Positions 36,478 to 57,249 of a DNA stretch of 64,000 nucleotides are shown in pieces. The stretch's first letter is position 1, and each line of letters starts with the position of its first letter. Origin of the DNA: Chryseobacterium rhizosphaerae (GTDB lineage Bacteria; Bacteroidota; Bacteroidia; Flavobacteriales; Weeksellaceae); the NCBI RefSeq assembly GCF_003385455.1, contig NZ_QNUF01000023.1, forward strand, positions 1 to 64,000. Direction: 5' to 3'. The position numbers and the translations under genes were made by a program. Below the pieces are notes generated by a model. It had not been told where the DNA came from, did no database searches, and saw only the letters and a program-made list of their open reading frames with translations.

Positions 36478-36581
36478 CATATAAGTTTGTTATGGTTCAG
36501 GTAAATGGCTATACTTTGAGATTTTAACAGATACTTGTTCTGACCATTTTCTATAATAATCTGCACAATGATCAACTATTG

Positions 36582-38127: not shown

Positions 38128-38158
38128 TTTGTCAGTTGTTTTTAGTATAGTATATTTG
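38128..38158 (+). promoter_or_regulatory. Consensus Bacteroidota promoter before the polyketide cluster
   Basis: TTTG at 38128-38131, exactly 19 bases, then TATATTTG at 38151-38158. This is a perfect fit to the TTTG-N19-TAnnTTTG consensus of the primary sigma factor in this phylum. Transcription should start near 38165, about 360 bases before the acyl carrier protein gene. The spacer contains TAGTATAG, related to the palindromes at 38446-38490. Confidence 0.75.
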
Positions 38159-38178: not shown

Positions 38179-38268
38179 ATGAAATACGAAAAAAACATTT
38201 CCCCCTATCTGATTCCCAAACAGATGGATTCTATCCACTCCTACACGGACATTAACATTTTAAAATAG
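38179..38268 (+). CDS. Short leader ORF (29 codons) upstream of the polyketide cluster
   Basis: An ATG 21 bases after the -7 box, in an A-rich ribosome-binding context, opens 29 codons: MKYEKNISPYL, then IPKQMDSIHSY and TDINILK, stop TAG. It is hydrophilic and not a signal peptide. It may be a regulatory leader peptide, a small signalling peptide or the remnant of a lost gene. It resembles nothing I know. Between it and the first cluster gene (38269-38523) I see only A/T-rich sequence and the palindromes at 38446-38490. Confidence 0.4.
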   Translation: MKYEKNISPYLIPKQMDSIHSYTDINILK

Positions 38269-38523: not shown

Positions 38524-38772
38524 ATGGAAAAACAAGAAAAATTATTCGAAAAAGTGTACGAGATTTTAGGTGATATTACGGAGTGTAATCCAAAGGAGAT
38601 TCAGCCGGATACCAACCTGTTACACGATATGGGAATGACCTCTCTCATGGGGCTGGAAGTTTTGGTAGAACTGGAAAGAAATTTTCAGGTCAGCCTTGAT
38701 GAAGAGCTTTTAGCTAATATGACGACCCCAAAAGATATTGTTAAAGTTTTGGAAGAAGAACTAGCAAGCTAA
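38524..38772 (+). CDS. Acyl carrier protein of the polyketide cluster
   Basis: An 82-residue ACP. Ser40 in HDMGMTSLMGLEVLVELE is the phosphopantetheine attachment site (usual motif DSL, here TSL). It carries the growing chain between ketosynthase, ketoreductase and dehydratase. It is first in the cluster. The divergent motif suggests a dedicated ACP rather than the fatty-acid one. A phosphopantetheinyl transferase is not in the window and must be supplied elsewhere. Confidence 0.92.
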   Translation: MEKQEKLFEKVYEILGDITECNPKEIQPDTNLLHDMGMTSLMGLEVLVELERNFQVSLDEELLANMTTPKDIVKVLEEELAS

Positions 38773-38870
38773 AATCTTGACTATTCATTCATATTTTGTT
38801 CAAAAAATGAACAGGTAGGGAATGAGACAAATTATCAAAATCAACTTATTGTAACAAACCAACACAAAAC

Positions 38871-40358
38871 ATGATTGACAATATTAATGTCGATGATTTG
38901 GTGATTGGAGCCGGTCTCTGTGGGTTAATGTATGGCTTAACAGCTGCCACAGAGGGACGCTCTGTCGTCATTAGCGAAGCACATCATAAAGTAGGCGGAT
39001 ATGCTACCAATTTTTACAGAAACAAGAGAAAATTCATTTTTGACTGTAGTCAGCATAAAGTAAGCGGACTCAGAGAACATGTAGGAAACCTCTGGAATAC
39101 TCTGAAAAGGTTGGAACTCCATTCTTTACTGGAAGAGTTTCATCTGCATGAAGAAATCGGAACCGTCGTTTATAGAGGCAACTTTATCAGAATTCCCTCG
39201 GAACCGAACGAAATTAAAGAGACTCTGAGAATGTACTTTCCGGATGAAACCACCGGAATAGAACAGCTATTTAAGGATATAGAAACCCATGGATATCAGC
39301 ATTATATGTTTTTCAGAAGACTGATGAATGAGTATACCATCAACAAAGATATCTTAAGAGAAAGCAGAGGCCTCTCCAAAATTACAGCACGGGAATATTT
39401 TGAAACAATATTTAAAGGAAATGATATCATTGAAGTACTCAGCCCTATCGCCATCTATTCGGGGTCTATTTCCAATGAAGTGAATGCTTTTTATTTTCTT
39501 CATTGCCTGTATGCTATGTTTTATGGAGGCCAGGCTTATGTAAAAGGAACAGGACAACACCTCTCGAATGTATTACTCAAAGAATTTATCAATCGCGGGG
39601 GGATCCTGTTAAAAAAGAATCCGGTCTATGAGATGGAAGACCATGATGAACATATGCTCGTCAAAACCCGAAAAAATATGATCAGGGCCAAGAATGTAAT
39701 TGCAACCTGTCCTCCGGAAGATGTACTGAAAATGCTGAAGAAACAGGAATATACAGACCGTTTCCAAAGCGTTATTAATAATTTTGAGGTCGGATGGGGA
39801 CACTTTTGCGTATACATTGTAATCTCAGTTCCTCCGGAAGAAATCGGCATATTTTCTCCCGAATATCTTTTGGTTTCAGACTCAGGAGACAACTTTACGA
39901 AGGAAGACTTTGAAAACGACAGATATTATGATCTTTTTACCCTGAGTATAAGCAATTATCATAGATTTGATCCTGCCGGCGGCTATGTCATCCAGCTTGT
40001 CATGCTGGATCATGGAGACAGATGGTTTCATCTTTCTGAGGAAGAATATACTGCCCGAAAACAAAAAATTCAGGATAAGTTTATAAAAAGAGCCCTTAAG
40101 ACATTTCCAAAACTTGAAGGAAAACTGATCTATACAGAATCATCAACACCAAAAACAAATTACAAATTTACTCTTGCCACCAAAGGTTCTGCTTTTGCCT
40201 ATAAGATGCTCCCCAGAACCAACTTAAGCCTGCTTAGTGACTTTCCCAATGACAAAATTAAATTAGTCAGTACCTGGGCTGGAGGTCCGGGTTATGAGAC
40301 TGCAATGTGTTTTGGCTTTACGCAAGGTAAATTATTGAGTAAAAACACAAAAATATGA
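38871..40358 (+). CDS. FAD-dependent oxidoreductase, CrtI/CrtISO-like
   Basis: A 495-residue flavoprotein. The dinucleotide-binding motif VIGAGLCGLMYGLTAATEG is at about residue 11-30, with SEAHHKVGGYATNF next, and the C-terminal FAD segment STWAGGPGYETAMCFGFTQGKLL. This layout is that of phytoene desaturase/carotene isomerase-type enzymes, which add or isomerise double bonds in long conjugated chains. No carotenoid genes are near. Here it may desaturate or isomerise the polyketide chain. Its stop overlaps the next start by four bases (ATGA), so it is coupled to the diiron oxygenase. Confidence 0.85.
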   Translation: MIDNINVDDLVIGAGLCGLMYGLTAATEGRSVVISEAHHKVGGYATNFYRNKRKFIFDCSQHKVSGLREHVGNLWNTLKRLELHSLLEEFHLHEEIGTVVYRGNFIRIPSEPNEIKETLRMYFPDETTGIEQLFKDIETHGYQHYMFFRRLMNEYTINKDILRESRGLSKITAREYFETIFKGNDIIEVLSPIAIYSGSISNEVNAFYFLHCLYAMFYGGQAYVKGTGQHLSNVLLKEFINRGGILLKKNPVYEMEDHDEHMLVKTRKNMIRAKNVIATCPPEDVLKMLKKQEYTDRFQSVINNFEVGWGHFCVYIVISVPPEEIGIFSPEYLLVSDSGDNFTKEDFENDRYYDLFTLSISNYHRFDPAGGYVIQLVMLDHGDRWFHLSEEEYTARKQKIQDKFIKRALKTFPKLEGKLIYTESSTPKTNYKFTLATKGSAFAYKMLPRTNLSLLSDFPNDKIKLVSTWAGGPGYETAMCFGFTQGKLLSKNTKI

Positions 40359-41371
40359 ATCCGTTAAAGAAAAAAACACTCAGCCCAAGATTTTCAGATC
40401 TGCTGGAGAAGCTTAATAAAGCATCTGAAAAAAAGCAAATGAGCCTGCTTCTGGATCACCCCTGGGATGAACCCATAGATAATGTATGGCTCAAGAAGAG
40501 AGAAAATATTTCCATCTATGGAACTCCGTATTATGATCTTGCATCAGAGGAAGAAAGAAGGCTTCTGTCTGTATATGAAACCGGAGCCTGGTGGTATACG
40601 TTTATTGTATTTGAAAACCTGGTCTCGGAATATTATATGAAAATTGTAAATCATGGTTCTCTGAAAAGATTTCCGGAGGTGGTAAAATATATACATCATT
40701 TCTGCAAAGAAGAAATCGTACATGCCATGGTATTCCGAAAAGCAATGAATTATTTTAATATTGCCCCCTTCCCTGTTCCTTTAAACTTACGGGAAATATA
40801 CAGCCATAATGCCTCCATGTCTGAATTTCCGCTTAAAGCCATCTACCTTACTATTTTAATAGAATGGCTGGCAGAAAACAATGCCATGGAAGACTGTAAC
40901 AGCAAAGAAATTTCCAAACTTTCCCGGGCAGTAGCGGTAGAACACCATAAAGAGGAAGCGAGACATATAGAATGGGGAAAAAATATGATCCGGGAATTTA
41001 TAGATGTTGTTCCTGATTTTTTAAATGAAGCCAGGGAGATTACAGCTCCCATGCTAAGAAGTATGCTCGACATGTCCATATCCAGTATAATGGTATATGC
41101 CAGAGTTGGTTTTAAAGATAAAGCCTTTAAAAACTATAAAGAGCTTATCCCAACTGTTCTGAATACTGAAAACAGAAAAAAAATCAATTCAAAGATTATG
41201 GCCCCTATGATGAGGTATTTCGTAGAAATAGGAATCTGTACCCATGAGAATATAGAAGTATGGAAAGCAAATGGTTTTGAAAAAGATGTTGAAGATGCTG
41301 TCGAGTATTTTAAAAAGAAATCCACTAATGAAGGTGATATAGACAATGTCATGGATAAAGATTATGATTAA
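40355..41371 (+). CDS. AurF-like diiron oxygenase
   Basis: A 338-residue helical protein with the ligand pattern of the p-aminobenzoate N-oxygenase (AurF) family: E120-x2-H123 in KEEIVHAMVFRKAM, and H197-x3-E201-x2-H204 in VEHHKEEARHIEWG, with further Glu candidates at 87 and about 170-174. Family members oxidise arylamines to nitro groups, and some oxidise other amines or aliphatic carbons. No arylamine gene is nearby, so the substrate here is open. It overlaps the FAD oxidoreductase gene by four bases, which suggests the two act together. Confidence 0.85.
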   Translation: MNPLKKKTLSPRFSDLLEKLNKASEKKQMSLLLDHPWDEPIDNVWLKKRENISIYGTPYYDLASEEERRLLSVYETGAWWYTFIVFENLVSEYYMKIVNHGSLKRFPEVVKYIHHFCKEEIVHAMVFRKAMNYFNIAPFPVPLNLREIYSHNASMSEFPLKAIYLTILIEWLAENNAMEDCNSKEISKLSRAVAVEHHKEEARHIEWGKNMIREFIDVVPDFLNEAREITAPMLRSMLDMSISSIMVYARVGFKDKAFKNYKELIPTVLNTENRKKINSKIMAPMMRYFVEIGICTHENIEVWKANGFEKDVEDAVEYFKKKSTNEGDIDNVMDKDYD

Positions 41372-41428
41372 ATATCAGTCTTTCACAAAACTATTCTAAC
41401 ACTTATTAATTAATATTAAATTTTTGGT

Positions 41429-42184
41429 ATGCATATTAACTTAGATGGCAGACATTTCCTGGTGACCGGTGGTGGACGGGGAATTGGAAAAGCTATTGTT
41501 CAGCAATTACTTTTTTCAGGAGCATCCGTTTCATTTACCTATAATCAAGGCCGGGAAATTGCAGAAAAATACTTACAGGAACTTTCTGTTGAGTTTCCTG
41601 ATAAGATCGCATTATACCATGCTGATATCCAAGATGAGGAACAGTCAAAATTATTAATAGAAACTATTGAAAAATCCTCATTAGGACCTTTATATGGGCT
41701 CATCAATAATGCAGGAATTACTGCAGATGCCCCATTTTTCAGCATGACCCATGCTATGTGGAGAGACGTGATCAATACCAACTTAAATGGAACTTATTTT
41801 CTTTCCAAAGCGGTTATAAAATCATTTATCCGAAAGAAAAATTCAAAAATAATCAATATTTCATCTGTTTCCGGTGTGCGTGGTGCTGTAGGACAGGCCA
41901 ATTATGGTGCATCCAAAGCAGCCATTATCTCACTCACCAAAACACTCGCCTTAGAATTTGCCAAGTTTAATATGCAGGTGAATGCAGTGGCTCCCGGATT
42001 TATAGATACTGAAATGGTTGCCCAAATGAATGAACAGGATAAGAAAAAAATAGACCAGATGATCCCCATGAAAAGAATGGGAATGCCACAGGAAGTTGCC
42101 GACATGGTCACTTTTCTCTGTTCTGAAAAAAGCAATTATGTGACCGGTCAGACATTCGTTATTGATGGTGGATTAACCTTATAA
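41429..42184 (+). CDS. 3-oxoacyl-ACP reductase, FabG-like SDR
   Basis: A 251-residue classical [11 protein letters not shown] (residues 13-20, cofactor loop), NNAG near 93, ISSVSG (catalytic Ser about 146), Y159-x3-K163 in NYGASKAAI, and the C-terminal [11 protein letters not shown] typical of FabG. It should reduce beta-keto groups on the ACP-bound chain with NADPH. It is a ketoreductase of the cluster, 17 bases before the ketosynthase gene. Confidence 0.92.
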
Positions 42185-42201
42185 ATAAACACAAAACCAA
42201 T

Positions 42202-43446
42202 ATGAAAAGAGTTGTTATTACAGGAATGGGAGTCGTAAGCCCGCTAGCTTGTGAGAAAGATGATTTCTGGAAAAAAATACTCAATGGAGATACCGGAGTC
42301 AGTGATCTTACCAAACTGGATTCCTCAAATTATAAAGGGGTAACAAGAGCTGCAGAAGTGCATCTTGAAAAAGAATATCACAATATAAACGTCATTGAGC
42401 ATTTCCGCCCATATGGAAAAGCTGTTACTTATGCTGCCGCTGCTGTAGATATGGGATTAAAAGATGCAGGGCTGGAAAATAAGTTTACTCAAAAAAACAA
42501 CTATGGAATTATCCTGGGAACAACGAATGGCAATCAGGATATTGTAGAACGTATCGTTGACGAATGGGATCTTGGTATGGAGCATGAAGAGCTCAATCCT
42601 GAGGCCAATGAAACCCTGAATAGATTCAGACCTGTAGAGTTAAGTGCTGGTATTGCAAAATATTATCATCTGGGAGGTCCCAATATGGTTATCCCTACCG
42701 CCTGTGCAGCCGGGAATTACGCTATAGGAACAGCCTATTCTATGATTCAGGAAGGTAGATCTCCCCTTATTATTGCAGGAGGTGCAGATCCTTTTACAAG
42801 GTCATGTTATACTGTATTTTACCGGTTAGGTGCAATGTCAAAAAATGATTGCAAACCTTTCGATCAGGATAGAACAGGAATGATTGTAGGAGAAGGCGCT
42901 GCTGTTTTAATTCTTGAAGAATTGGAACATGCGTTGGCCAGAGGAGCAAGGATTTATGGAGAAATAAAGGGATATGGACTGGCTTGTGATGCATATGATC
43001 CCACAGCCCCGGATCCGGAAGGCTCAGGAGCTACATTATCCATGTCTAATGCTCTTGTTTCAGGTAATATTGACAGAAAAAACATCACCTATGTAAGTGC
43101 TCACGGAACCGGAACAAAAGCAAATGATGCTCATGAGATAAAAGCAATGAGTAATGTCTTTGGAGAAGGAATAAACACTTTATATGTGAATGGAATAAAA
43201 TCAATGCTGGGACATTGTATGGGGGCAGCAAGTGCTCTTGAGGCTGTAAGCTCAGTTTTATCATTATATCATCAGCAAATTCCGAAAAACAGAAACACAG
43301 AAAGAATTGACGAATCTTTTAATATCAACTTCCAGATACAGCCATCCAAGGAAATAGAACATCATGTAGAACACGTTCTAAGTAATTCTTTTGCCTTTGG
43401 CGGTAACATCTGTAGTGTAATATTCAGCAAATATGATACAAATTAA
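42202..43446 (+). CDS. Beta-ketoacyl-ACP synthase (KS-alpha, FabF-like)
   Basis: A 414-residue condensing enzyme with a full Cys-His-His set: C168 in IPTACAAGNYAIG, H301 in SAHGTGTKANDAHE and H338 in SMLGHCMGAASA. It begins KRVVITGMGVVSPLA, as FabF/type II KS enzymes do. It should catalyse decarboxylative chain extension. Its end overlaps the start of the next gene by 14 bases; tight coupling of KS with a second KS-like protein is the hallmark of type II polyketide KS/CLF heterodimers. Confidence 0.94.
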   Translation: MKRVVITGMGVVSPLACEKDDFWKKILNGDTGVSDLTKLDSSNYKGVTRAAEVHLEKEYHNINVIEHFRPYGKAVTYAAAAVDMGLKDAGLENKFTQKNNYGIILGTTNGNQDIVERIVDEWDLGMEHEELNPEANETLNRFRPVELSAGIAKYYHLGGPNMVIPTACAAGNYAIGTAYSMIQEGRSPLIIAGGADPFTRSCYTVFYRLGAMSKNDCKPFDQDRTGMIVGEGAAVLILEELEHALARGARIYGEIKGYGLACDAYDPTAPDPEGSGATLSMSNALVSGNIDRKNITYVSAHGTGTKANDAHEIKAMSNVFGEGINTLYVNGIKSMLGHCMGAASALEAVSSVLSLYHQQIPKNRNTERIDESFNINFQIQPSKEIEHHVEHVLSNSFAFGGNICSVIFSKYDTN

Positions 43447-44473
43447 TTCAAAAACCGATATTGTAATTTCTGCTATTGGCTTTAACAGTCCGTATGGAAC
43501 AGAAATAGATGAATACCTGAACAATTGGGGAAATCTGCCCCTACCTTCTTCTATCATTGAAGATCATGATCCTCAGAAATTTTTAAAACCCAAAGGGCAG
43601 CGTTTTCTGAATAAAGCCACATTAATTTACTGTAATGCCGCATTCCAGTCTATTCATAACCGGGATTTAGGTAAGTATATACAAAACAATCCGGAGAGGA
43701 TTGGGCTCTATGATGGAACGGAACTATCTAACCTTGAGGACTGTTTTATTTTCGATTTAACAGCTAAAAATCAGGGACCGGACAGAGTAAGCCCTATGAA
43801 AGCACCCAGCACAATCGCTAATGCAGCAGCCAGCCAGATGGCTATACAAACCGGAATAAAAGGACCTAACTTCAGTGTATGCGCAGGAATGGCGGGAAGT
43901 CTCCAGGCATTGGATATTGCTTATCTTCATTTGAAACAGGGAATGATAGATTACGGAGTAACGGCTTCTACGGAGGTACGGAATTCCTATCAGAAAGCAA
44001 TACAAAAAACCCAGAGAAATAAATCTCCGGAACTGGGAATCTCCATGATTCTGGAACGTCAGGAATCTTTAGAAAAGGACAACAGGAAGCCTTTAGCCCG
44101 AATTACAATGCTGCATTCTGAAACCTATACCCATGATGCAATTCCTTTTGAAACCTATTTGTATGAAATGTTATTCCCGGTCATAAGACTGTACAATACA
44201 GATACGATCATTGTCTCCGGCGGAACTTCCACAATACATACCAATATATTCGAAAACTTATTTAAAGAAAAGAATTTTCCTGTGACAGTATTGTATCCTG
44301 AAGATAAATTCGGTGATCTGGATAATGCCGGAGGAATGCTAGGTATTGCTTATGCCATTTCAGTATTTAACGGCCAAAACTCTCACAGAACAGACAAAAA
44401 AAACATCCTTGTCCTGTCAGCAGATCCGTCCGGAACAGTAATCTACACCATTATAGAAAAAAACAGTATATAG
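43433..44473 (+). CDS. Inactive ketosynthase-like protein (chain-length-factor type)
   Basis: A 346-residue KS-fold protein without the catalytic residues. Aligning GPNFSV...AYLHLKQG with the partner's GPNMVI...AYSMIQEG places Met (about residue 153) at the active Cys, although a Cys (150) lies three residues away. The region equivalent to the first His reads SGGTSTIHTN and the second reads FGDLDNAGGMLG, with Asp for His. This fits a chain-length factor partner of the overlapping KS. It is shorter and more divergent than typical CLFs, which usually have Gln at the Cys position. Confidence 0.82.
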   Translation: MIQINSKTDIVISAIGFNSPYGTEIDEYLNNWGNLPLPSSIIEDHDPQKFLKPKGQRFLNKATLIYCNAAFQSIHNRDLGKYIQNNPERIGLYDGTELSNLEDCFIFDLTAKNQGPDRVSPMKAPSTIANAAASQMAIQTGIKGPNFSVCAGMAGSLQALDIAYLHLKQGMIDYGVTASTEVRNSYQKAIQKTQRNKSPELGISMILERQESLEKDNRKPLARITMLHSETYTHDAIPFETYLYEMLFPVIRLYNTDTIIVSGGTSTIHTNIFENLFKEKNFPVTVLYPEDKFGDLDNAGGMLGIAYAISVFNGQNSHRTDKKNILVLSADPSGTVIYTIIEKNSI

Positions 44474-44474
44474 T

Positions 44475-44957
44475 ATGAAAGCCATTTTAGAATCCTATCA
44501 AATCTCCCAAATAGTAAAATACCGATACCCTTTTTTACTCATAGACAAAGTCACCGAATATGTAAAAGGGGAAAGACTAAAAGCCGTCAAAGCTGTATCT
44601 ATGGGAGAACCTTATTTTTCAGGACATTTTCCTGATTTTCCCATCATGCCCGGCGTCCTCATTACCGAAGCTCTTGCTCAGACCTCTTCATTAATGACGG
44701 TCCTGGATAGTCTGGATTGGCAAGCTGGCAGTGAAATTCCAACTTCAGAAGCAACTTCAATGGGAGTATTGGGAAGCGTTCAAATCAGCTTTTTACAATC
44801 TGTACTTCCAGGAAACTTACTGGAACTGGAGGTCAGCATAGATTGGAAAAAGGGATCCGCCAGCTCTGTGAACGTCAAAGCATCGGTAGAAGGCTCTATC
44901 TGTGCAAAAGGCAAAATCACAGTGATGTCTGTTGATAAAAGTAAAATCTCTTCTTAA
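44475..44957 (+). CDS. FabZ-like 3-hydroxyacyl-ACP dehydratase
   Basis: A 160-residue hotdog-fold protein with the FabZ active site: H51 in YFSGHFPDFPIMPGVLI and E65 in TEALAQT, matching the catalytic His and Glu of E. coli FabZ (54 and 68) in spacing. It should remove water from the beta-hydroxyacyl-ACP. With no enoyl reductase in the cluster the double bonds would stay, giving a polyene. It starts one base after the preceding stop codon. Confidence 0.92.
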   Translation: MKAILESYQISQIVKYRYPFLLIDKVTEYVKGERLKAVKAVSMGEPYFSGHFPDFPIMPGVLITEALAQTSSLMTVLDSLDWQAGSEIPTSEATSMGVLGSVQISFLQSVLPGNLLELEVSIDWKKGSASSVNVKASVEGSICAKGKITVMSVDKSKISS

Positions 44958-44959
44958 GC

Positions 44960-45688
44960 ATGAATACGCCTATTTTATTCTGTATTCCTTATGCAGGTGG
45001 ATCATCAATGTCATTTTCAAATATTAGAAGCCTGATCAGCATGGAGGGGTTGGAGATTAAATGCCTGGAACTTCCGGGAAGAGGTCTTAGACACAAAGAA
45101 CCACTCCTCTCCTCTCTGGATGAGGCAGTGGAGGACCTTTATGCACATATAAAAGACAGTCTGGTATTTCCGCAAAGACCTATTTTAATCTGGGGGCACA
45201 GTATGGGTGCTATTTTAGCCCTATTGGTTTCTTCCAAATTAAATAAATATCAGTTCAATACGGTTGGATTATTGGTTTCAGGAATGAAAGCACCTACCCA
45301 CCAGTCATCACCTCATACCCTGTCCGAAAAGGCTAAAAACAAATTATTATCTGATCTTTTACCTATCAAGTATGAGCAGAACAAAGAGGCTCCTCTTTTT
45401 CAAAAAATTTATAAGAAAAGAATGGAGATTATGGAAAAAGATGTAGAAATATTGGAAAAATATCAGACTGATAATTGGTCAAAAATATCTGTATCCAATA
45501 CTATAGCCGTTATCATGGGCGAAAGTGACGAACTATACCCTACCTTATCCTATTATGAAAACTGGAAACTTCATACTTCAGGCAATACAGAATGGTTTCC
45601 GATAAAGGGCAATCATTTTTTCCCGATGCAACATCCGGAAGAAACCGCCAGATTACTTACTCAAATACTAACACAAATATTGAACTAA
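44960..45688 (+). CDS. Type II thioesterase (GrsT-like)
   Basis: A 242-residue alpha/beta hydrolase: FCIPYAGGSSMSF, ELPGRGLRHKEPL, nucleophile S81 in WGHSMGAILA, acid region MGESDELYP and a His in IKGNHFFPMQHPE. This is the standard type II (editing) thioesterase pattern. It may release the finished chain from the ACP or clear stalled intermediates. Start is two bases after the dehydratase stop. Confidence 0.92.
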   Translation: MNTPILFCIPYAGGSSMSFSNIRSLISMEGLEIKCLELPGRGLRHKEPLLSSLDEAVEDLYAHIKDSLVFPQRPILIWGHSMGAILALLVSSKLNKYQFNTVGLLVSGMKAPTHQSSPHTLSEKAKNKLLSDLLPIKYEQNKEAPLFQKIYKKRMEIMEKDVEILEKYQTDNWSKISVSNTIAVIMGESDELYPTLSYYENWKLHTSGNTEWFPIKGNHFFPMQHPEETARLLTQILTQILN

Positions 45689-45717
45689 AACAATCCATTA
45701 ACTTAAAAAAACAAAAA

Positions 45718-46938
45718 ATGAAAGTGAAAAAATTATTATTCTTACCGGCAATCGCCTTGCTTAGTCTAATGTATGCATGCTCCAATGATAGTATGACACT
45801 GGAACCTATTGCTGAACCCAATGCACAAATATCAGCTTTATCCATGTCCAGAAATGTCTCATCGCTATCTGCTTATTTTGGTGATAATATAGATTTCAAC
45901 AATTTACCCAATTATGCCAACCAAAATATTCCCATGTATATATTCAGGAACAACATTCCGTTCATTAATCGTATCACCAATGAAGGAGCTACATTAGGAA
46001 GGGTTTTATTTTATGATAAGAAGCTCTCCAGCAACAATACCGTATCATGTTCCAGCTGCCATAAACAGGAATTGGCATTTGGAGATAATAATGTTGCCAG
46101 TCAGGGGGTAAATGGAACAACGGGCAGACATTCTATGAGGCTGATCAATGTGAGATTTGCAGAAGAAGCCAGATTATTCTGGGATAAACGGGCAGCCTCC
46201 CTGGATACCCAGACAACCATTCCGATAAAAGACCATGTAGAAATGGGCTATAGTGGTAAGAACGGAGCCCCATCATTTGATAATCTTATTACAAAACTTC
46301 AGGGCCTGGAGTATTATAAAGACCTTTTCACAAGAGCCTATGGCAGCCCGGAGATTACCGAAGAAAAAATGCAGAAAGCATTAGCCCAATTTGTCAGCAG
46401 TATCATCTCTTTTGACTCAAAGTATGACGAAGGAAGAACTATGAGTGGATCTGATTTTCTTGATTTCCCTAACTTTACCGCCGAAGAAAACCTTGGAAAA
46501 AAACTATTCCTGGAATTTCCTGTTGCTGTACGGGGAACCCGTGCAGGAGGAGGTTTTGGCTGTGCAAGCTGCCACCTGGCTTCGGAATTTGGGATGAGTG
46601 CCCTGAGTGGTAATAATGGCGTAATTGATAAAATAGGGAGTACTGACATAGATCTTACTGTGACCAATTCTCCTTCAATGCGGGATCTGGTTAATTCCAA
46701 TGGACAACCTCATGCTCCTATGATGCATTCTGCTGTATTTTCTACGTTAGAGCAGGTAATAGATCACTATAACAATATTCCACAAGACCCCAGAAACAAC
46801 AAACTGGATAATAACCTCCGTTTAAGAGGTTTAAATGCTACACCGGAGGAAAAAAAGGCGGTTATTGCCTTTATGAAAACTCTTACCGGAAAAAATGTTT
46901 ATAAGGATAAAAAATGGTCAAACCCATTTATCAATTAA
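45718..46938 (+). CDS. Di-heme cytochrome c peroxidase/MauG-like lipoprotein
   Basis: About 406 residues. A signal peptide ends in the lipobox LMYAC (Cys21), so it is anchored in the periplasm. Two heme-binding CxxCH motifs (C111-C114-H115 in VSCSSCHKQELAFG; C282-C285-H286 in FGCASCHLASEFG) define the bacterial di-heme peroxidase/MauG family. ATG 45718 is chosen because it starts the signal peptide; the longer frame runs inside the thioesterase gene. It begins 29 bases after the thioesterase stop, so it is probably co-transcribed. It could act on the exported product or simply detoxify peroxide. Confidence 0.9.
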   Translation: MKVKKLLFLPAIALLSLMYACSNDSMTLEPIAEPNAQISALSMSRNVSSLSAYFGDNIDFNNLPNYANQNIPMYIFRNNIPFINRITNEGATLGRVLFYDKKLSSNNTVSCSSCHKQELAFGDNNVASQGVNGTTGRHSMRLINVRFAEEARLFWDKRAASLDTQTTIPIKDHVEMGYSGKNGAPSFDNLITKLQGLEYYKDLFTRAYGSPEITEEKMQKALAQFVSSIISFDSKYDEGRTMSGSDFLDFPNFTAEENLGKKLFLEFPVAVRGTRAGGGFGCASCHLASEFGMSALSGNNGVIDKIGSTDIDLTVTNSPSMRDLVNSNGQPHAPMMHSAVFSTLEQVIDHYNNIPQDPRNNKLDNNLRLRGLNATPEEKKAVIAFMKTLTGKNVYKDKKWSNPFIN

Positions 46939-46979: not shown

Positions 46980-47109
46980 AAACATCTCCGGAATCTCTCA
47001 TAATTCCATTCTTCCGGATAATGCGGATCGTATTGTTTGATTTCCGAATCTATATGATATCCATAAATACAGTGTACCCAATATCATGGAGTATCATAGT
47101 GATAGACAG

Positions 47110-51634: not shown

Positions 51635-54600
51635 TTAGTCTACGTGTTTCGGAGTAAATCCGTCTTCACTTAGTTCTTTATGTACATAATCAGCTTTCAT
51701 TTCAGCTTCGTAGTCTACTTTTTCATGTTTACCCATTCTTCTTAGAATTGAATCAAATAATGAATAAACTACCGGCACAATGATCAGCGTCAGGAATAGA
51801 GATGATGTCAAACCACCAATAATAACCCATGCCAATCCGTTGTTCATCTCCGCTCCTGCTCCTTTTGCAATCGCAATCGGGATCATACCGAAAATCATCG
51901 CAATTGTTGTCATCAGGATCGGACGAAGACGTGCGTGGTTCGCCTGAATCAAAGCATCATGAGTACTGGCTCCTGCTTCTTTTCTCATATTCGCAAAGTC
52001 GACAATCATAATCGCATTCTTCGCTACCAAACCAATCAACATGATCATCCCCAGCATCGTAAAGATGTTTAATGAATTTGCGGTGATAGCAAGGATAACC
52101 ATTACCCCGATCAATGCCAGAGGAATAGAGAATAATACTACAAACGGATATACGAATGAATCATACAATGAAACCATTACCAGGTAAACCAATACGATAG
52201 CGGCCATCAATGCAATTCCTAAGGTACCGAAACCTTCGGTCTGGTTTTCCATATCACCACTCCAGATGTAGCTTACTCCCGCCGGTTTTGTTTTTTCGTT
52301 ATCCATAAACTGAGCAGCCCATTCGTTAGCAACATCTCCTACAGGACGACCTACCACTTTAGATTTTACCTTTACAGAAGGTGCTTTATCTCTACGTTCC
52401 AATAAACTCGGTCCTGAACCCATTTTCACTTCTGCAAACTGACTTAGTCTGATCTGCTCACCCTGAGGGTTTGTAAACATCAGGTTTCTTACATCATCAA
52501 TGGATTGTCTGTTGGCATCACCAAAACGGATATTGATGTCATATTCATATTCTCCGGCTCTGAATTTTCCGTCTGTATTTCCACTGAATGCAGTCTGCAT
52601 CGTTTGTCCTACACTGGAAAGGTTTAAGCCTAAAGATGCCATTTTATCTCTGTCGATATTCACCTGAACTTCCGGATTTCCAGAGTCAGTCGATAATTCT
52701 GCATCTACGGAACCAGGAACTTTTTTAAGCAACTCTAGAATTCTGTTAGCTTCTTTATTGGCTGTTTCGTTATCCTGAGCCGTTACCACCATTTCAATCG
52801 GTGCATTATCTGCTCCCATTAATCCAATTGGTGCCGTTTTAAATTCAACTCCTGTGAATTTTTCTTCCAATGCTCTCTTGATTCTTGCAGATTTTATATC
52901 TGTGCTTTCATTACGCTCAGATTTATCGACCAGAATCACCTGGATCTCTGACTGATATAAAGTAGCCTGCGCACCACCAAATCCTGATGACTGCTGACCA
53001 ACCGTGGTGATCATGTCTACAACATCTTTATCATTTCTAAGATATCTTTCAACCTCCAATGTCAGCTGATTGGTTTTTTCTACAGAAGCATCTTTAGGTA
53101 ATTCCATCTGAACAAGGAACTGTCCTCTGTCCATTTTAGGGAAGAATTCACCACCGATAAATCCGAAAGCGACCAGCATGAATGAAGAAATCAGGATAAT
53201 GAAGGTTACGACTACTGTCATAATTCTTCTTAATGTTGTTTTTAAAGCCCACTCCAGAATTCCTGTGATCCAGTGAGTGAATTTTTCCAATTGCTTTTCA
53301 AACCAAAGGATAAATTTCTCAAAAGGATTTTTACCTGTCAAATGTACCAGTTTACCATATCTTGAAGATAACCAAGGAATGATGGTAAATGAAGCTAATA
53401 AGGAGAATAATGTCGCAATAACCACCGTGACGCAGAACTGCGCCAGGATATCAGATACCAATCCTGAACTCATCGCGATCGGTAAGAATACCACCACGAT
53501 TACCAGGGTGATAGCTGTTACGGTAAATCCAATCTCCGAAGCTCCGTCATAGGCTGCACGAATTCTGCTTTTCCCCATCTCCATGTGACGGTAAACGTTC
53601 TCCAAAACTACAATGGCATCATCCACAAGGATACCAACAACCAGTGAAAGTCCTAATAAACTCATCAGGTTTAAGGTATAGCCCATCAGATACATCCCAA
53701 TTACTGTTGCAATCAATGACATCGGAATAGAAACCATTACGATAAATGCATTTCTGATGTTATGAAGGAACAATAACATTACTACTGCTACCAGGATAAT
53801 CGCTAAGAATAAATCGAAAATTACATGGTCCGCAGCTTCAAGTGTAAAGTCTGTTGTATCATCTACAATGTTTATTTTAATTGCCTGAGTTTTATAATTC
53901 TTCTGAACATCGGCAATTGTTTTCTTCACTAATTCTGAAACTGAAACCGCATTGGCATCAGATTGCTTTTTAACCTGAAGTAAAATCGTAGAATTCTGAT
54001 TGTATCTTGCAACTTTCTCCACATCTTTCTGTGTATCGAAAACTGTTGCAATATCAGATAAACGAACCTGAGCCCCATTTTTATTGGAAACGACAAGGTT
54101 ATTCATCTCATCTACACTTTTATATTTTCCGGAAAGTCTGATCGTAGATCTTGAAGTTCTCGTCTTCAAAGCTCCCGTCGGGAAATCCAGGTTTGAGGAA
54201 AGAATCGCCTGCTGTACGTCTGCGATGGCAATCCCATATCCCTGCATTTTCTTTTCATCTAAGTTTACCTGAATCTCTCTCTCCTGCCCTCCTACAAGAT
54301 CAACCTGAGCCACACCGTTTACACGGGAGAAAATAGGTTCTATTTTTTTATCTAAAAGGTCATAAAGATCTTTATTATTCAGTTTATCACTGGAAATACT
54401 CAATGTCATGATCGGGAGATCATCCAATGAGAATTTCTGCAAAGAAGGTGGATCTGCATCGTCCGGAAGATCTGCTAAAATAGCATTAACCTTTCTCTGT
54501 GCATCATTCAAAGCATAGTTTACATCGGCACCGGTATTCAGCTGAACCATAATAACCGATAAACTTTCATAAGATGAAGATTCTACTTTTTTTACATTTT

Positions 54601-54823
54601 CCAGGGAACCCACGGCATCTTCAATTTTCCGGGTTACCGAAGTTTCCACCTCAGCAGGCGAAGCTCCGGGATATACCGTAGAAATGGTTACCATATTGGT
54701 TTCAAACTTTGGAATCAACTCGTACCCCATCATGGAGTAACTTAATAAACCACCCAACGTAAGTATCGTAAACAATACGATAACAAGGGATGGCCTTTTA
54801 ATGGATATTTCTGCTAACTTCAT
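51635..54823 (-). CDS. RND efflux transporter, inner-membrane pump (HAE1, AcrB-like)
   Basis: A 1062-residue RND pump with twelve predicted membrane helices and two large periplasmic loops. It shows the family's conserved pieces: SIKRPSLVIVLFTILTLGG at the start, VYPGASPAEVETSVT, the helix-4 segment GLSLVVGILVDDAIVVLENV with proton-relay Asp residues, GGEFFPKMDRGQFLV and FTMLGMIMLIGLVAKNAIMIVDF. It exports drugs or other toxic compounds using proton flow. It is the last gene of a TetR-OMF-MFP-RND operon, six bases after the adaptor. Confidence 0.95.
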   Translation of the reverse strand: MKLAEISIKRPSLVIVLFTILTLGGLLSYSMMGYELIPKFETNMVTISTVYPGASPAEVETSVTRKIEDAVGSLENVKKVESSSYESLSVIMVQLNTGADVNYALNDAQRKVNAILADLPDDADPPSLQKFSLDDLPIMTLSISSDKLNNKDLYDLLDKKIEPIFSRVNGVAQVDLVGGQEREIQVNLDEKKMQGYGIAIADVQQAILSSNLDFPTGALKTRTSRSTIRLSGKYKSVDEMNNLVVSNKNGAQVRLSDIATVFDTQKDVEKVARYNQNSTILLQVKKQSDANAVSVSELVKKTIADVQKNYKTQAIKINIVDDTTDFTLEAADHVIFDLFLAIILVAVVMLLFLHNIRNAFIVMVSIPMSLIATVIGMYLMGYTLNLMSLLGLSLVVGILVDDAIVVLENVYRHMEMGKSRIRAAYDGASEIGFTVTAITLVIVVVFLPIAMSSGLVSDILAQFCVTVVIATLFSLLASFTIIPWLSSRYGKLVHLTGKNPFEKFILWFEKQLEKFTHWITGILEWALKTTLRRIMTVVVTFIILISSFMLVAFGFIGGEFFPKMDRGQFLVQMELPKDASVEKTNQLTLEVERYLRNDKDVVDMITTVGQQSSGFGGAQATLYQSEIQVILVDKSERNESTDIKSARIKRALEEKFTGVEFKTAPIGLMGADNAPIEMVVTAQDNETANKEANRILELLKKVPGSVDAELSTDSGNPEVQVNIDRDKMASLGLNLSSVGQTMQTAFSGNTDGKFRAGEYEYDINIRFGDANRQSIDDVRNLMFTNPQGEQIRLSQFAEVKMGSGPSLLERRDKAPSVKVKSKVVGRPVGDVANEWAAQFMDNEKTKPAGVSYIWSGDMENQTEGFGTLGIALMAAIVLVYLVMVSLYDSFVYPFVVLFSIPLALIGVMVILAITANSLNIFTMLGMIMLIGLVAKNAIMIVDFANMRKEAGASTHDALIQANHARLRPILMTTIAMIFGMIPIAIAKGAGAEMNNGLAWVIIGGLTSSLFLTLIIVPVVYSLFDSILRRMGKHEKVDYEAEMKADYVHKELSEDGFTPKHVD

Positions 54824-54829
54824 CTTCTG

Positions 54830-55891
54830 TTACTTTACGATATTGATTTTCGCACCATTATCAAGGTTGATCTGTCCACTGGTCACTACCTGTTCACCAC
54901 CGTTCAGTCCGCTTAAGATCTGAACTTTATCACCGTACACTTTTCCTGTTTGTACTTTGATCAGTTTAGCAATACCATTGTTTACGATAAATAATTGCCC
55001 TGAACTTACTCCGTTTACGAAAGCTTCTGCAGGAACGGTAAGCATATTCTGAGTTTCAGCACCGTGATTGGTTTTAAATAAAGCGGTTGCATACATCCCT
55101 GCTTTTAAGTTTCCTCTGTTCTGAACTTCAATTTCAACAGGGAAATTTAAAGATGCATCACTTTTAGGAGCAATGAAGGTAATTCTACCGCTGAAAGAAT
55201 CTTCAGGTAAAACATTGACATTAATAGGAACTTCCTGTCCCAGTGCAATTCTTCCTACCTGACTTTCATCTACCAATACAGAAAGTTTAAGACTGTTGAT
55301 ATTAACGATTTCAAACATAGAAGTCCCTACAGAAACCACTGTTCCAGGCTCAACCATCTTTTTATTGATCGTTCCGCTGATTCCTGCACGAATGCTGGTA
55401 TCATTTACTCTTACTCCCTGAGCTTTAACGGCAGCCTGCATGTTTTTCAGCTGTAGTCTTGAGTTATCCAGCTGCTGTTTTGTAACACCACCGGTTTTAT
55501 ATGCGTTTTCGTAACGTTGGTTGTCAATAATTGCATTTTGCAAATTATTCTGAGCTTGTGTTACATCAACTTCAATGGCATCTCTTTTAATAGTTGCCAA
55601 CGTCTGACCTGCAGAAACTCTGGAACCTTCCTTTACCAAAACACTAACGATACGCCCTGCAATTTCTGAAGACTGATTCATTTCCTGTTTAGGAATAAAT
55701 GTTCCGTTGGCTGAGTAATCGGTATTGATATTTTCTCTAGAAACCGTTACAACATTCACGTTGATCTTATCAACCTGCTTAGCAACTTCTTTAACCTCTT
55801 TTGTCTGTTTCTCTTTGTTACCTGCAATCTTATAGGCTGCCAAACCTACAAGTACAGCTGCTACGATGATATATATTAAAGTTTTTTTCAT
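54830..55891 (-). CDS. RND periplasmic adaptor (membrane fusion protein)
   Basis: A 353-residue adaptor: an N-terminal membrane helix (LIYIIVAAVLVGLAAYKIAG), the lipoyl-like half-motifs GRIVSVLVKEGSRVSAGQTLATIK and RAGISGTINKKMVEPGTVVSVG, a helical hairpin between them and C-terminal beta-barrel. It links the pump to the outer-membrane channel. It starts five bases after the channel gene. Confidence 0.94.
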   Translation of the reverse strand: MKKTLIYIIVAAVLVGLAAYKIAGNKEKQTKEVKEVAKQVDKINVNVVTVSRENINTDYSANGTFIPKQEMNQSSEIAGRIVSVLVKEGSRVSAGQTLATIKRDAIEVDVTQAQNNLQNAIIDNQRYENAYKTGGVTKQQLDNSRLQLKNMQAAVKAQGVRVNDTSIRAGISGTINKKMVEPGTVVSVGTSMFEIVNINSLKLSVLVDESQVGRIALGQEVPINVNVLPEDSFSGRITFIAPKSDASLNFPVEIEVQNRGNLKAGMYATALFKTNHGAETQNMLTVPAEAFVNGVSSGQLFIVNNGIAKLIKVQTGKVYGDKVQILSGLNGGEQVVTSGQINLDNGAKINIVK

Positions 55892-55896
55892 TTTAG

Positions 55897-57249
55897 TTAT
55901 GGGTTTTGTAGTGTGTTTAATTCTCCTTTAGCTTTAATTAATTTGATCTCAGCTTGCTTATAGTCTAATAATGCGTTTGAATAATTCTGTTTTGCCTGAG
56001 TCAAAGCATTCTCAGAATCTAAAACTTCTGTAAGTGTTGCCAAACCATTCTGATAATTAGACTGAGTATTTTTCTGTACTCTTTCCGCAAGGCCTACATT
56101 GTCTTTCATACTTTGGATATTAATGATAGAGTTTTCCATATTGGAAATCGCATTTTTATAATCCAAGTTCAAAGTCAACTGTGTATTTTGAATATCCAAA
56201 TCCAAATCCTGAATATCAATTTCAGCTTGCTGAATCTTAGCTTTTGTAGACCCTCCTGTAAAGATCGGAACATTAATATTTAGCCCTATTGCTGAATAAT
56301 CACTCCAAAGTACCCCATTACTCAAACCATTGGTAAGAGGAAATTTCTTTCCTGTTGCCGCCCATGCATAATTGGCCTGCAGGCTTACAGTAGGGTAAAG
56401 ATAGGCTTCCGTTGCTTTTTTGTTGAACACAAGAAGCTCCCTGTTTTTATTCTTCACTTGCATCTCCAAGCGGTTATTCAGATCCACGTTGCTGACGATT
56501 AGCTCAGGTTTCGGTTCAATAGTCTTTTCTTCAAGCTCTATACTGGAATCAATGGGAACTCCCATGTAAAACTTCAGAGCATTTTTTGAAAGCTCAACTG
56601 AATTGATAAGTTGCTGTCTGTTTGATCCAATATTAGTCAGCTGTACGTTTGTACGATCTAAATCAATGGCTTTTGCCAATCCGTTATCAACTAGACTCTT
56701 GATAACATTTCTTGTTTTTTCTGTATTGGTGTAGCTTACCTCCACAGTCTTAAGGTTTTCTTCCTGTACAAACACCTGATAATAAGCAGTGGCTACATTT
56801 TCAATAATCTGTTCATTGGTCAACTGAGCATTCAGGATATAAAACTCTCTTGTTGATTTTGCAGCCTTAAGGCCAGTAAAGACTCTCTGATCAAATATAG
56901 CCTGCTGAACATTTACCCCTGCATTGGTGCTCCAAGGCTGTCCCAACTGAGCGGTTATTCTTTGTCCACCAAACTCCAGTAATGACTGCTGAATAATTGG
57001 ATTATAAGTTAAGCCTGCCGTACCGGTTACCTGAGGTAAAGCTCCTGCTCTGGCTTCATCTATTTTATATTCAGCTTTTTTGATCTGTAAGGCCGCTTTT
57101 TTGGCTTCTGCCTTATTTTGAAGAGCCTGCTTAATGGCTTCCTGTAAAGAAACCTGCTGTTGTGCAGACACCGATGAAAAGCCGAAAATCATAAATGCTG
57201 CAGCTATCCCAATTTTTAGCTTTTGCGCAGTTATACGTTTTCTTTTCAT
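55897..57249 (-). CDS. TolC-like outer membrane efflux protein
   Basis: A 450-residue OMF protein with a signal peptide (AAFMIFGFSSVSAQQ) and the two repeated helical halves of TolC (VSLQEAIKQALQNKAEAKKA, later YQNGLATLTEVLDSENALTQAKQNYSNALLDY). It forms the outer-membrane exit duct. It follows the TetR gene by 81 bases; a separate promoter in that gap is not obvious. Confidence 0.93.
   Translation of the reverse strand: MKRKRITAQKLKIGIAAAFMIFGFSSVSAQQQVSLQEAIKQALQNKAEAKKAALQIKKAEYKIDEARAGALPQVTGTAGLTYNPIIQQSLLEFGGQRITAQLGQPWSTNAGVNVQQAIFDQRVFTGLKAAKSTREFYILNAQLTNEQIIENVATAYYQVFVQEENLKTVEVSYTNTEKTRNVIKSLVDNGLAKAIDLDRTNVQLTNIGSNRQQLINSVELSKNALKFYMGVPIDSSIELEEKTIEPKPELIVSNVDLNNRLEMQVKNKNRELLVFNKKATEAYLYPTVSLQANYAWAATGKKFPLTNGLSNGVLWSDYSAIGLNINVPIFTGGSTKAKIQQAEIDIQDLDLDIQNTQLTLNLDYKNAISNMENSIINIQSMKDNVGLAERVQKNTQSNYQNGLATLTEVLDSENALTQAKQNYSNALLDYKQAEIKLIKAKGELNTLQNP

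Follow-up and report, generated by a model that had tools for sequence, protein, structure and literature searches.

A reducing type II polyketide synthase locus with AurF-like and CrtI-like genes in Chryseobacterium and its relatives with PqsA-E-like genes

Comparison of the locus with described systems

The described systems closest to the locus analyzed here are the alkylquinolone clusters, the reducing type II polyketide synthases (PKS) for ishigamide, aryl polyenes (APE) and flexirubins, and a gene cluster of anammox bacteria. The locus lies in a 64-kb stretch ("the window") of the 5.27-Mb genome of Chryseobacterium rhizosphaerae (G000, contig C23), where nine genes on the plus strand occupy positions 38524-46938. 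In the order claimed by an initial annotation of the sequence, they encode an acyl carrier protein (ACP), a flavin adenine dinucleotide (FAD) oxidoreductase, an AurF-like diiron enzyme, a ketoreductase (KR), a ketosynthase (KS), a chain length factor (CLF), a dehydratase (DH), a thioesterase (TE) and a di-heme lipoprotein. We consider it somewhat probable that this locus belongs to a reducing type II PKS family spread by horizontal transfer, of which it would be the form without quinolone genes (type A); the fuller form (type B) additionally contains PqsA-E-like genes.

The clusters for 2-alkyl-4-quinolones (pqsABCDE, hmqABCDEFG) resemble type B in the PqsA-E-like genes and its Chryseobacterium members also in PhnAB/TrpEG-like genes. 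The available passages of PMC12012761 describe alkylquinolone clusters from four genera and in four architectures, none of which includes a dedicated KS/CLF, a CrtI-like or an AurF-like gene. The window locus, in contrast, has no pqs-like gene.

The KS/CLF of the ishigamide system (PDB 6KXD), a highly reducing type II PKS, is of the polyene-building type and was the second-best PDB match of the window KS (9e-72), but the ishigamide KS falls outside the clade formed by the KSs of types A and B. That system is not known to include an AurF or CrtI-like enzyme. The best PDB sequence match of both KS and CLF was 9s5h, possibly an anammox ladderane KS; a literature search for this entry code gave no relevant paper. 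In a fold search with the KS model, which is too poor to use (predicted local distance difference test, pLDDT, 41.8), 9s5h was not among the 50 matches listed. A KS with an intact Cys-His-His triad beside an inactive partner, together with an ACP, identifies the locus as a type II PKS with a KS/CLF pair. The inactive partner had already been recognized in the initial annotation, and the position of the KS Cys is occupied by Met in the window CLF, by Gln in the CLF of a gammaproteobacterial metagenome-assembled genome (MAG) and by Arg in that of Photobacterium. Gln is usual at this position in CLFs.

The APE and flexirubin clusters have KS, CLF, KR, DH and ACP without an enoylreductase (ER) in common with the window locus. 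However, scans of the open reading frames (ORFs) and protein families of the nine-gene locus recognized no aryl starter genes (ammonia lyase, aryl-CoA ligase), no acyltransferase and no dialkylresorcinol synthase genes (DarA/DarB), and the score of the window KR with the FlxB model (227) remained below the cut-off of 340. The same genome carries a separate flexirubin locus on contig C17 (L061, L062), with 899 bits for FlxA (cut-off 700) and 418 bits for FlxB (cut-off 340). A KS tree with APE, flexirubin, ishigamide and fatty-acid enzymes, as suggested in the initial annotation, was calculated with 10 of the 17 loci described below; the references included two E. coli APE KSs and three host flexirubin-locus KSs, and they had long branches, the mutual order of which the tree does not fix. 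The KSs of types A and B formed one clade (98/98) apart from the host FabFs, the host flexirubin-locus KSs, the E. coli APE KSs, the ishigamide KS and PDB 9s5h_B. The window KS was thus outside all reference groups tested. Together, these results bear out the initial annotation in that the locus is not an ordinary APE or flexirubin locus, and the scans agree with its statement that the respective starter, acyltransferase and dialkylresorcinol genes are lacking.

The available passages of PMC4790861 describe ACP, FabZ, FabF, non-canonical FabF, phytoene desaturase-like and radical SAM genes at Kuenenia kuste3603-3608. At the level of gene kinds, the first five of these are shared with the window locus. 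The anammox cluster has the radical SAM gene, whereas the window locus instead has the diiron AurF-like enzyme, a KR and a TE. Lastly, the di-heme protein has two CxxCH motifs and a CCP_MauG domain in common with MbnH/MauG enzymes, but its score with the MbnH model TIGR04039 was 164 bits, below the cut-off of 362.85.

Two cluster types, their kinship and their insertion site

Among 173 Chryseobacterium genomes, 12 encode the AurF-like protein (14 loci), and outside this genus it was found in none of 320 genomes of the family. In a sample of 395 genomes of the phylum, the only match was the source genome itself. The spread beyond Chryseobacterium comes from a GTDB contig scan, which yielded 10 AurF-like loci (eight from Chryseobacterium, one from Flavobacterium hercynium and one from the gammaproteobacterial MAG, 42% identity), and from a plasmid collection with a single match, in Photobacterium sp. 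GJ3 (plasmid pGJ3-1).

Two gene orders occur. Type A has the nine-gene order of the window and comprises six loci (window, C. sp. Bi04, G100, G061, C. phosphatilyticum and C. sp. PMSZPI). Type B comprises 11 loci, i.e. eight from Chryseobacterium and those of F. hercynium, the MAG and Photobacterium sp. GJ3 (L028-L035, L043, L045, L046), and has the order PqsA-like ligase, PqsB-like, PqsC-like, ACP, FAD enzyme, AurF, PqsD-like, PqsE-like, KR, KS, CLF, DH. The blocks ACP-FAD-AurF and KR-KS-CLF-DH are common to all type A and type B loci, and the AurF gene is placed behind those for the ACP and the FAD enzyme in all 17 loci. Two genomes, G084 and G100, carry both types. The initial annotation had described a stand-alone polyene locus; this was incomplete, as the nearest kin are clusters that contain PQS-type (Pseudomonas quinolone signal) genes plus the same chain machinery.

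The surroundings of the common blocks vary within type B. In the eight Chryseobacterium loci, PqsE and KR are separated by an FAD monooxygenase gene, and the TE gene is followed by TrpE/TrpG-like genes. Another FAD monooxygenase gene is located behind the cluster in F. hercynium and Photobacterium and upstream of it in the MAG, and TrpE/G were absent from the stretch read in these three. The gammaproteobacterial pair has an extra SCP2-like gene between AurF and PqsD (checked with Pfam for the Photobacterium copy). All nine Bacteroidota loci have a TE, but none was detected in the two gammaproteobacterial loci. Five of the eight Chryseobacterium loci contain a complete di-heme gene, and in two others this gene is truncated where the locus ends; no copy was seen in the type B loci of C. 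phosphatilyticum, F. hercynium and the gammaproteobacterial pair. The only Chryseobacterium type B cluster without the di-heme gene is adjoined by a 759-aa ORF (L049 8949-11228), presumably KatG-like judging by its N-terminus, which may be a different peroxide-handling enzyme. A DUF3995 membrane protein recurs beside type B clusters in both phyla (PF13160 for L046 15036-15461 and L048 2623-3132; L049 11316-11732, by likeness only).

A tblastn search with the type B proteins of C. pennae detected PqsA, C, D and E in 11 of 11 type B loci and PqsB in 10; in Photobacterium, where this search did not detect PqsB, a 282-aa ORF occupies its place. No PqsA-E match was obtained in any of the six type A loci or, at 1e-8, in the 64-kb window. 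In four of four genomes with type A only, including G000, the search for PqsC-like proteins gave nothing but paralogues with identities up to 33%, and PqsE was not matched over its full length. The best PDB match of the C. pennae PqsC-like protein was P. aeruginosa PqsC (1.6e-63; next, another KS III, 3.6e-31), that of the PqsB-like protein was PqsB (2.7e-11; next 1.1e-6), and that of the metallo-beta-lactamase-fold protein was PqsE, the 2-aminobenzoylacetyl-CoA thioesterase (1.4e-30; next 3.3e-9). The PqsA-like ligase resembles benzoate-CoA ligases, its 356 bits falling slightly short of the cut-off (375); the two genes at the end of the C. pennae cluster are anthranilate-synthase-like. Judged from these sequence similarities, type B probably encodes the synthesis of a quinolone together with a dedicated polyene synthase. 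According to the P. aeruginosa pathway in the available passages of PMC12012761, a PqsA-E-type set would yield a 2-substituted 4-quinolone.

No report of quinolone genes combined with a reducing type II PKS and AurF/CrtI-like genes was found in the open literature, subscription papers lying outside the scope of the search, and the combination was absent from the available passages of two reviews (alkylquinolones, 2020; type II PKSs) and of papers on Bacteroidetes genome mining and marine alkylquinolones. The same literature likewise contained no report of the AurF, CrtI-like and reducing type II PKS mix that had struck the initial annotation as undescribed.

Locus trees were calculated from the FAD, AurF, KR, KS, CLF and DH proteins of the 17 loci, leaving out ACP, TE and MbnH. 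When they were rooted on the gammaproteobacterial pair, type A formed one group (83/100) among the type B loci. Type B is likely the ancestral form, because the interleaved order is common to the Photobacterium, MAG and Bacteroidota loci, and type A would have arisen from it by loss of the quinolone blocks. A nesting of type A within the Bacteroidota type B loci appeared in the tree (80/93) and was not retained: a single Bacteroidota type B group was not rejected (approximately unbiased, AU, test, p 0.19), and in the KS tree the lineages branch in another order.

Identities were compared with an outlying type B lineage (F. hercynium and the type B locus of C. phosphatilyticum) as reference, MbnH being left out. 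The values for type A and for the other type B loci were 79.9% and 80.8% for AurF, 65.6% and 67.1% for FAD, 81.2% and 82.5% for KR, 78.7% and 80.3% for KS, and 63.6% and 66.9% for CLF. Between type A and the main type B group, AurF is 83.0% and FAD 77.6% identical.

The cluster was inserted as one unit. Its flanking genes, for a DUF2306 membrane protein at 36579 and a tetratricopeptide repeat (TPR) protein at 47110, occur close together without the cluster elsewhere in the genus. Among 60 sampled genomes, 12 had a full TPR gene and no type A cluster; six of these were read, and all six hold a gene for a protein of about 820 aa between the same flanks (with Sel1/WG repeats in the one scanned). 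Homology with the cluster-less sites restarts at 46980-46998 in five cases and at 47109 in the sixth, and because this is just behind the di-heme gene, the insert extends from before the ACP gene to the end of the di-heme gene. This agrees with the initial annotation, which had counted the di-heme gene to the cluster, and with its recurrence in seven of the eight Chryseobacterium type B clusters. Behind the cluster, the gene for the 820-aa protein has been kept in the type A genomes G100 and G084 and lost in the window and L023.

Purifying selection acts on each of the nine genes. The ratios of nonsynonymous to synonymous substitution (dN/dS) were 0.015-0.117 compared with L023 and 0.033-0.089 compared with L024, both type A relatives, with several dS values versus L024 above 1 and thus near saturation.

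Proposed pathway and alternative explanations

We propose that KS/CLF together with ACP, KR and DH would build a conjugated polyenoyl-ACP from malonyl units. A polyene is expected because KR and DH occur without an ER, and malonyl loading would be taken from fatty-acid synthesis because there is no dedicated acyltransferase. The FAD enzyme would dehydrogenate or isomerise the ACP-bound chain, which the AurF-like diiron enzyme would modify by an O2-dependent oxidation. In type B, a 2-polyenyl-4-quinolone would result from the coupling of the chain with 2-aminobenzoylacetate by the PqsBC-like KS III pair. The TE of type A would free the chain as an oxidised polyene acid or a similar lipid. Outside the inner membrane, the exported di-heme lipoprotein may have the product or peroxide as its substrate, the weakest step of the proposal.

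The FAD and AurF-like enzymes most likely act on the ACP-bound chain and not on an aryl amine, because type A, without Pqs genes, keeps both about as conserved as they are between type B lineages, whereas enzymes for the quinolone head would be expected to disappear or diverge in type A; their fixed place behind the ACP also suits this role. The chemistry of the FAD enzyme could be desaturation, saturation or isomerisation. "CrtI-type oxidation", as the initial annotation had put it, is unproven, as every carotenoid model matched remained below its cut-off (CrtD 89.8 bits, cut-off 549.7; CrtISO 57.6, 586.9; CrtI family 35.2, 238.1). The window FAD enzyme is 40% identical to the gammaproteobacterial type B copies, and its profile had only weak flavoenzyme matches in the PDB (best 7e-8). 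The alignments for the profile and structure searches consisted of the window and the 10 loci of the GTDB contig scan; PDB searches with single sequences gave no relevant match for either the AurF-like or the FAD enzyme.

In the AurF-like protein, PF11583 was recovered in 11 of 11 rows scanned, and E87, E120, H123, E170, H197, E201 and H204 are invariant across them, down to an identity of 41%. By comparison with AurF, these seven positions correspond to its diiron ligands, including the extra His. With AurF and CmlI, the enzyme has the Pfam family, the fold and presumably the seven-ligand spacing in common; however, the identity over the structural alignment is 12-13%, and no arylamine pathway was recognized in the window locus.

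Two proposals are combined in this pathway: a quinolone cluster family that extends from Gammaproteobacteria to Bacteroidota and has its own PKS for an oxidised polyene side chain, and an oxidation of an ACP-bound polyene by AurF-family and CrtI-like enzymes that has become visible since the window lineage dropped the quinolone half. We judge the chances that both hold to be evenly balanced. If true, the alkylquinolones, which serve Pseudomonas and Burkholderia as quorum signals and antimicrobials, would gain a branch in Bacteroidota and Photobacterium with a custom polyene tail, of which no report was found. Chryseobacterium species with type A, type B or both would be a natural dissection of quinolone head and tail, and it becomes testable whether AurF-type diiron enzymes act on carrier-bound lipids. 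The type B clusters are probably more notable than the window locus.

Several observations weigh against the proposed family and pathway. The AurF-like model has a modest pLDDT of 67.8, and its rankings differ between programs: VIA listed the arylamine oxygenase CmlI (Z 15.2), AurF (14.5) and an aldehyde-deformylating oxygenase (13.6), values near the helical-bundle warning level of this tool, the list of which does not rule out unlisted families, and the top Foldseek match, none being under E 0.001, was an aldehyde-deformylating oxygenase (E 4e-3). The substrate assigned to the AurF-like and FAD enzymes is an argument from gene loss. In view of the AU test, an origin of type A inside the Bacteroidota type B group is no more than a possibility. 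Compared with the outlying lineage, ACP (69.4% in type A, 74.2% in the other type B loci) and DH (70.5%, 75.3%) are somewhat more diverged in type A; between types A and B, the values are 68.2% for ACP and 69.4% for DH. The TE is 46.2% identical between type B lineages and 45.0% between types A and B, and TE divergence was thus rejected as a sign of altered release in type A. The C. pennae PqsD-like protein exceeds the threshold of the general FabH model (304 versus 292 bits), and because PqsD-like proteins do so, their assignment as PqsD is based on context. Finally, about 5 kb downstream of the type A cluster of G114 there is a stretch that resembles, by its motifs, a nonribosomal peptide synthetase adenylation domain (L054 6918-8375; 23% like PqsA only), and this genome may have a partner pathway.

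The AurF-like enzyme might instead have kept the role of an arylamine N-oxygenase. It would then provide a quinolone N-oxide precursor in type B and, in type A, use as substrate an amine of primary metabolism, which would then be attached to the polyene. This fits the Pfam assignment of all 11 members, the leading VIA ranks of CmlI and AurF, the conservation of the seven presumed ligand positions and the presence of an aryl amine pathway in type B, but no ligase, aminotransferase or amine source was recognized in the type A insert, despite the 83% identity of its AurF to type B. In addition, N-oxidation could be performed by the FAD monooxygenases of the Chryseobacterium type B, F. hercynium, MAG and Photobacterium loci, and the position of AurF behind ACP and FAD enzyme also speaks against such a role, which we regard as rather unlikely. 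A lipid-modifying pathway would compare with the ladderane candidate cluster of anammox bacteria; the chain would be passed to membrane lipids or a hydrocarbon, with the diiron enzyme processing an aldehyde or acid. This alternative appears more doubtful still. The locus scans recognized neither a radical SAM enzyme nor an acyltransferase or acyl-ACP reductase, the PqsBC link in type B suggests a small molecule, and a TE is present; on the other hand, the AurF-like profile had an aldehyde decarbonylase as best PDB match (weak, E 0.017), which is in line with the Foldseek ranking, and five of the six gene kinds at Kuenenia kuste3603-3608 are shared (PMC4790861, available passages).

A further alternative is a variant APE or flexirubin pathway, which would borrow the tyrosine ammonia-lyase and ligase of the host flexirubin locus. 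KS, CLF, KR, DH and ACP are of the same kinds and FlxA/FlxB are encoded elsewhere in the host, but the separate KS clade, the lack of a recognized aryl-CoA ligase, DarA/DarB or acyltransferase in the locus and the quinolone genes of the kin clusters make this variant highly improbable.

Gene layout and neighbouring observations

The features of the locus are compiled in Table 1. FAD and AurF genes overlap by 4 bases and KS and CLF genes by 14 bases. The longest gaps, 98 bases between ACP and FAD and the one between AurF and KR, exceed the gaps of 1-30 bases given in the initial annotation; the latter had claimed overlaps of 4-14 bases or such gaps for many of the nine genes, and this holds. 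The longest ORF for the di-heme protein starts at 45592, inside the TE gene, but the ATG listed in the table suits the lipoprotein-like N-terminus.

Table 1. Genes and other features of the locus (window coordinates)
Feature	Position	Strand	Evidence
Acyl carrier protein (ACP)	38524..38772	+	PF00550 2.6e-14; Ser in MTSL motif
CrtI/CrtD-like FAD oxidoreductase	38871..40358	+	PF01593/PF13450; best NCBIfam match CrtD
AurF-family diiron enzyme	40355..41371	+	PF11583 78.0 bits, cut-off 29.6
Ketoreductase (KR), FabG-like short-chain dehydrogenase/reductase	41429..42184	+	Family matches; NNAG, YxxxK (YGASK)
Ketosynthase (KS)	42202..43446	+	Cys168/His301/His338 intact; clade with type B KSs
Chain-length-factor-like KS partner (CLF)	43433..44473	+	PF00109 6e-8; Cys replaced by Met, both His lost
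FabZ-like dehydratase (DH)	44475..44957	+	PF07977; NF000582 FabZ 122.1 bits, cut-off 113; GHFPDFPIMPG
Type II thioesterase (TE)	44960..45688	+	PF00975 2.4e-23; GHSMG
MbnH/MauG-like di-heme lipoprotein	45718..46938	+	PF03150 7.6e-46; two CxxCH; Cys lipobox-like N-terminus
57-base AurF-KR gap	41372..41428	+	In type B, PqsD- and PqsE-like genes here, plus FAD monooxygenase gene in eight Chryseobacterium loci
Possible Bacteroidota-type promoter TTTG-N19-TATATTTG	38128..38158	+	Weak motif match

The promoter motif, based on the Bacteroidota consensus, had 7 matches in the window versus 3.4 expected by shuffling, a weak excess. An ORF of 28 aa at 38182-38268 was rejected as a precursor of a ribosomally synthesized and post-translationally modified peptide, as tblastn matched it (61%) in L023 only and the frame is shortened or absent in the compared type A loci. 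An Rfam scan of the window gave no matches.

A quinoline, G1499-2, was reportedly obtained from Cytophaga johnsonii in 1978, an unverified lead that would agree with a quinolone branch in Bacteroidota. The same genome has type I PKS-like genes on contig C10 (L006, L007), with KS matches in open frames of 1426 and 2360 aa. A likely resistance-nodulation-division (RND) efflux operon is located 4.7 kb behind the cluster on the minus strand (window positions 51635-57249; ORFs of 1062, 353 and 450 aa), named from the sequence of the first ORF, and a near-identical N-terminus to that RND-like ORF is also found behind the type A cluster of G061 (L053).

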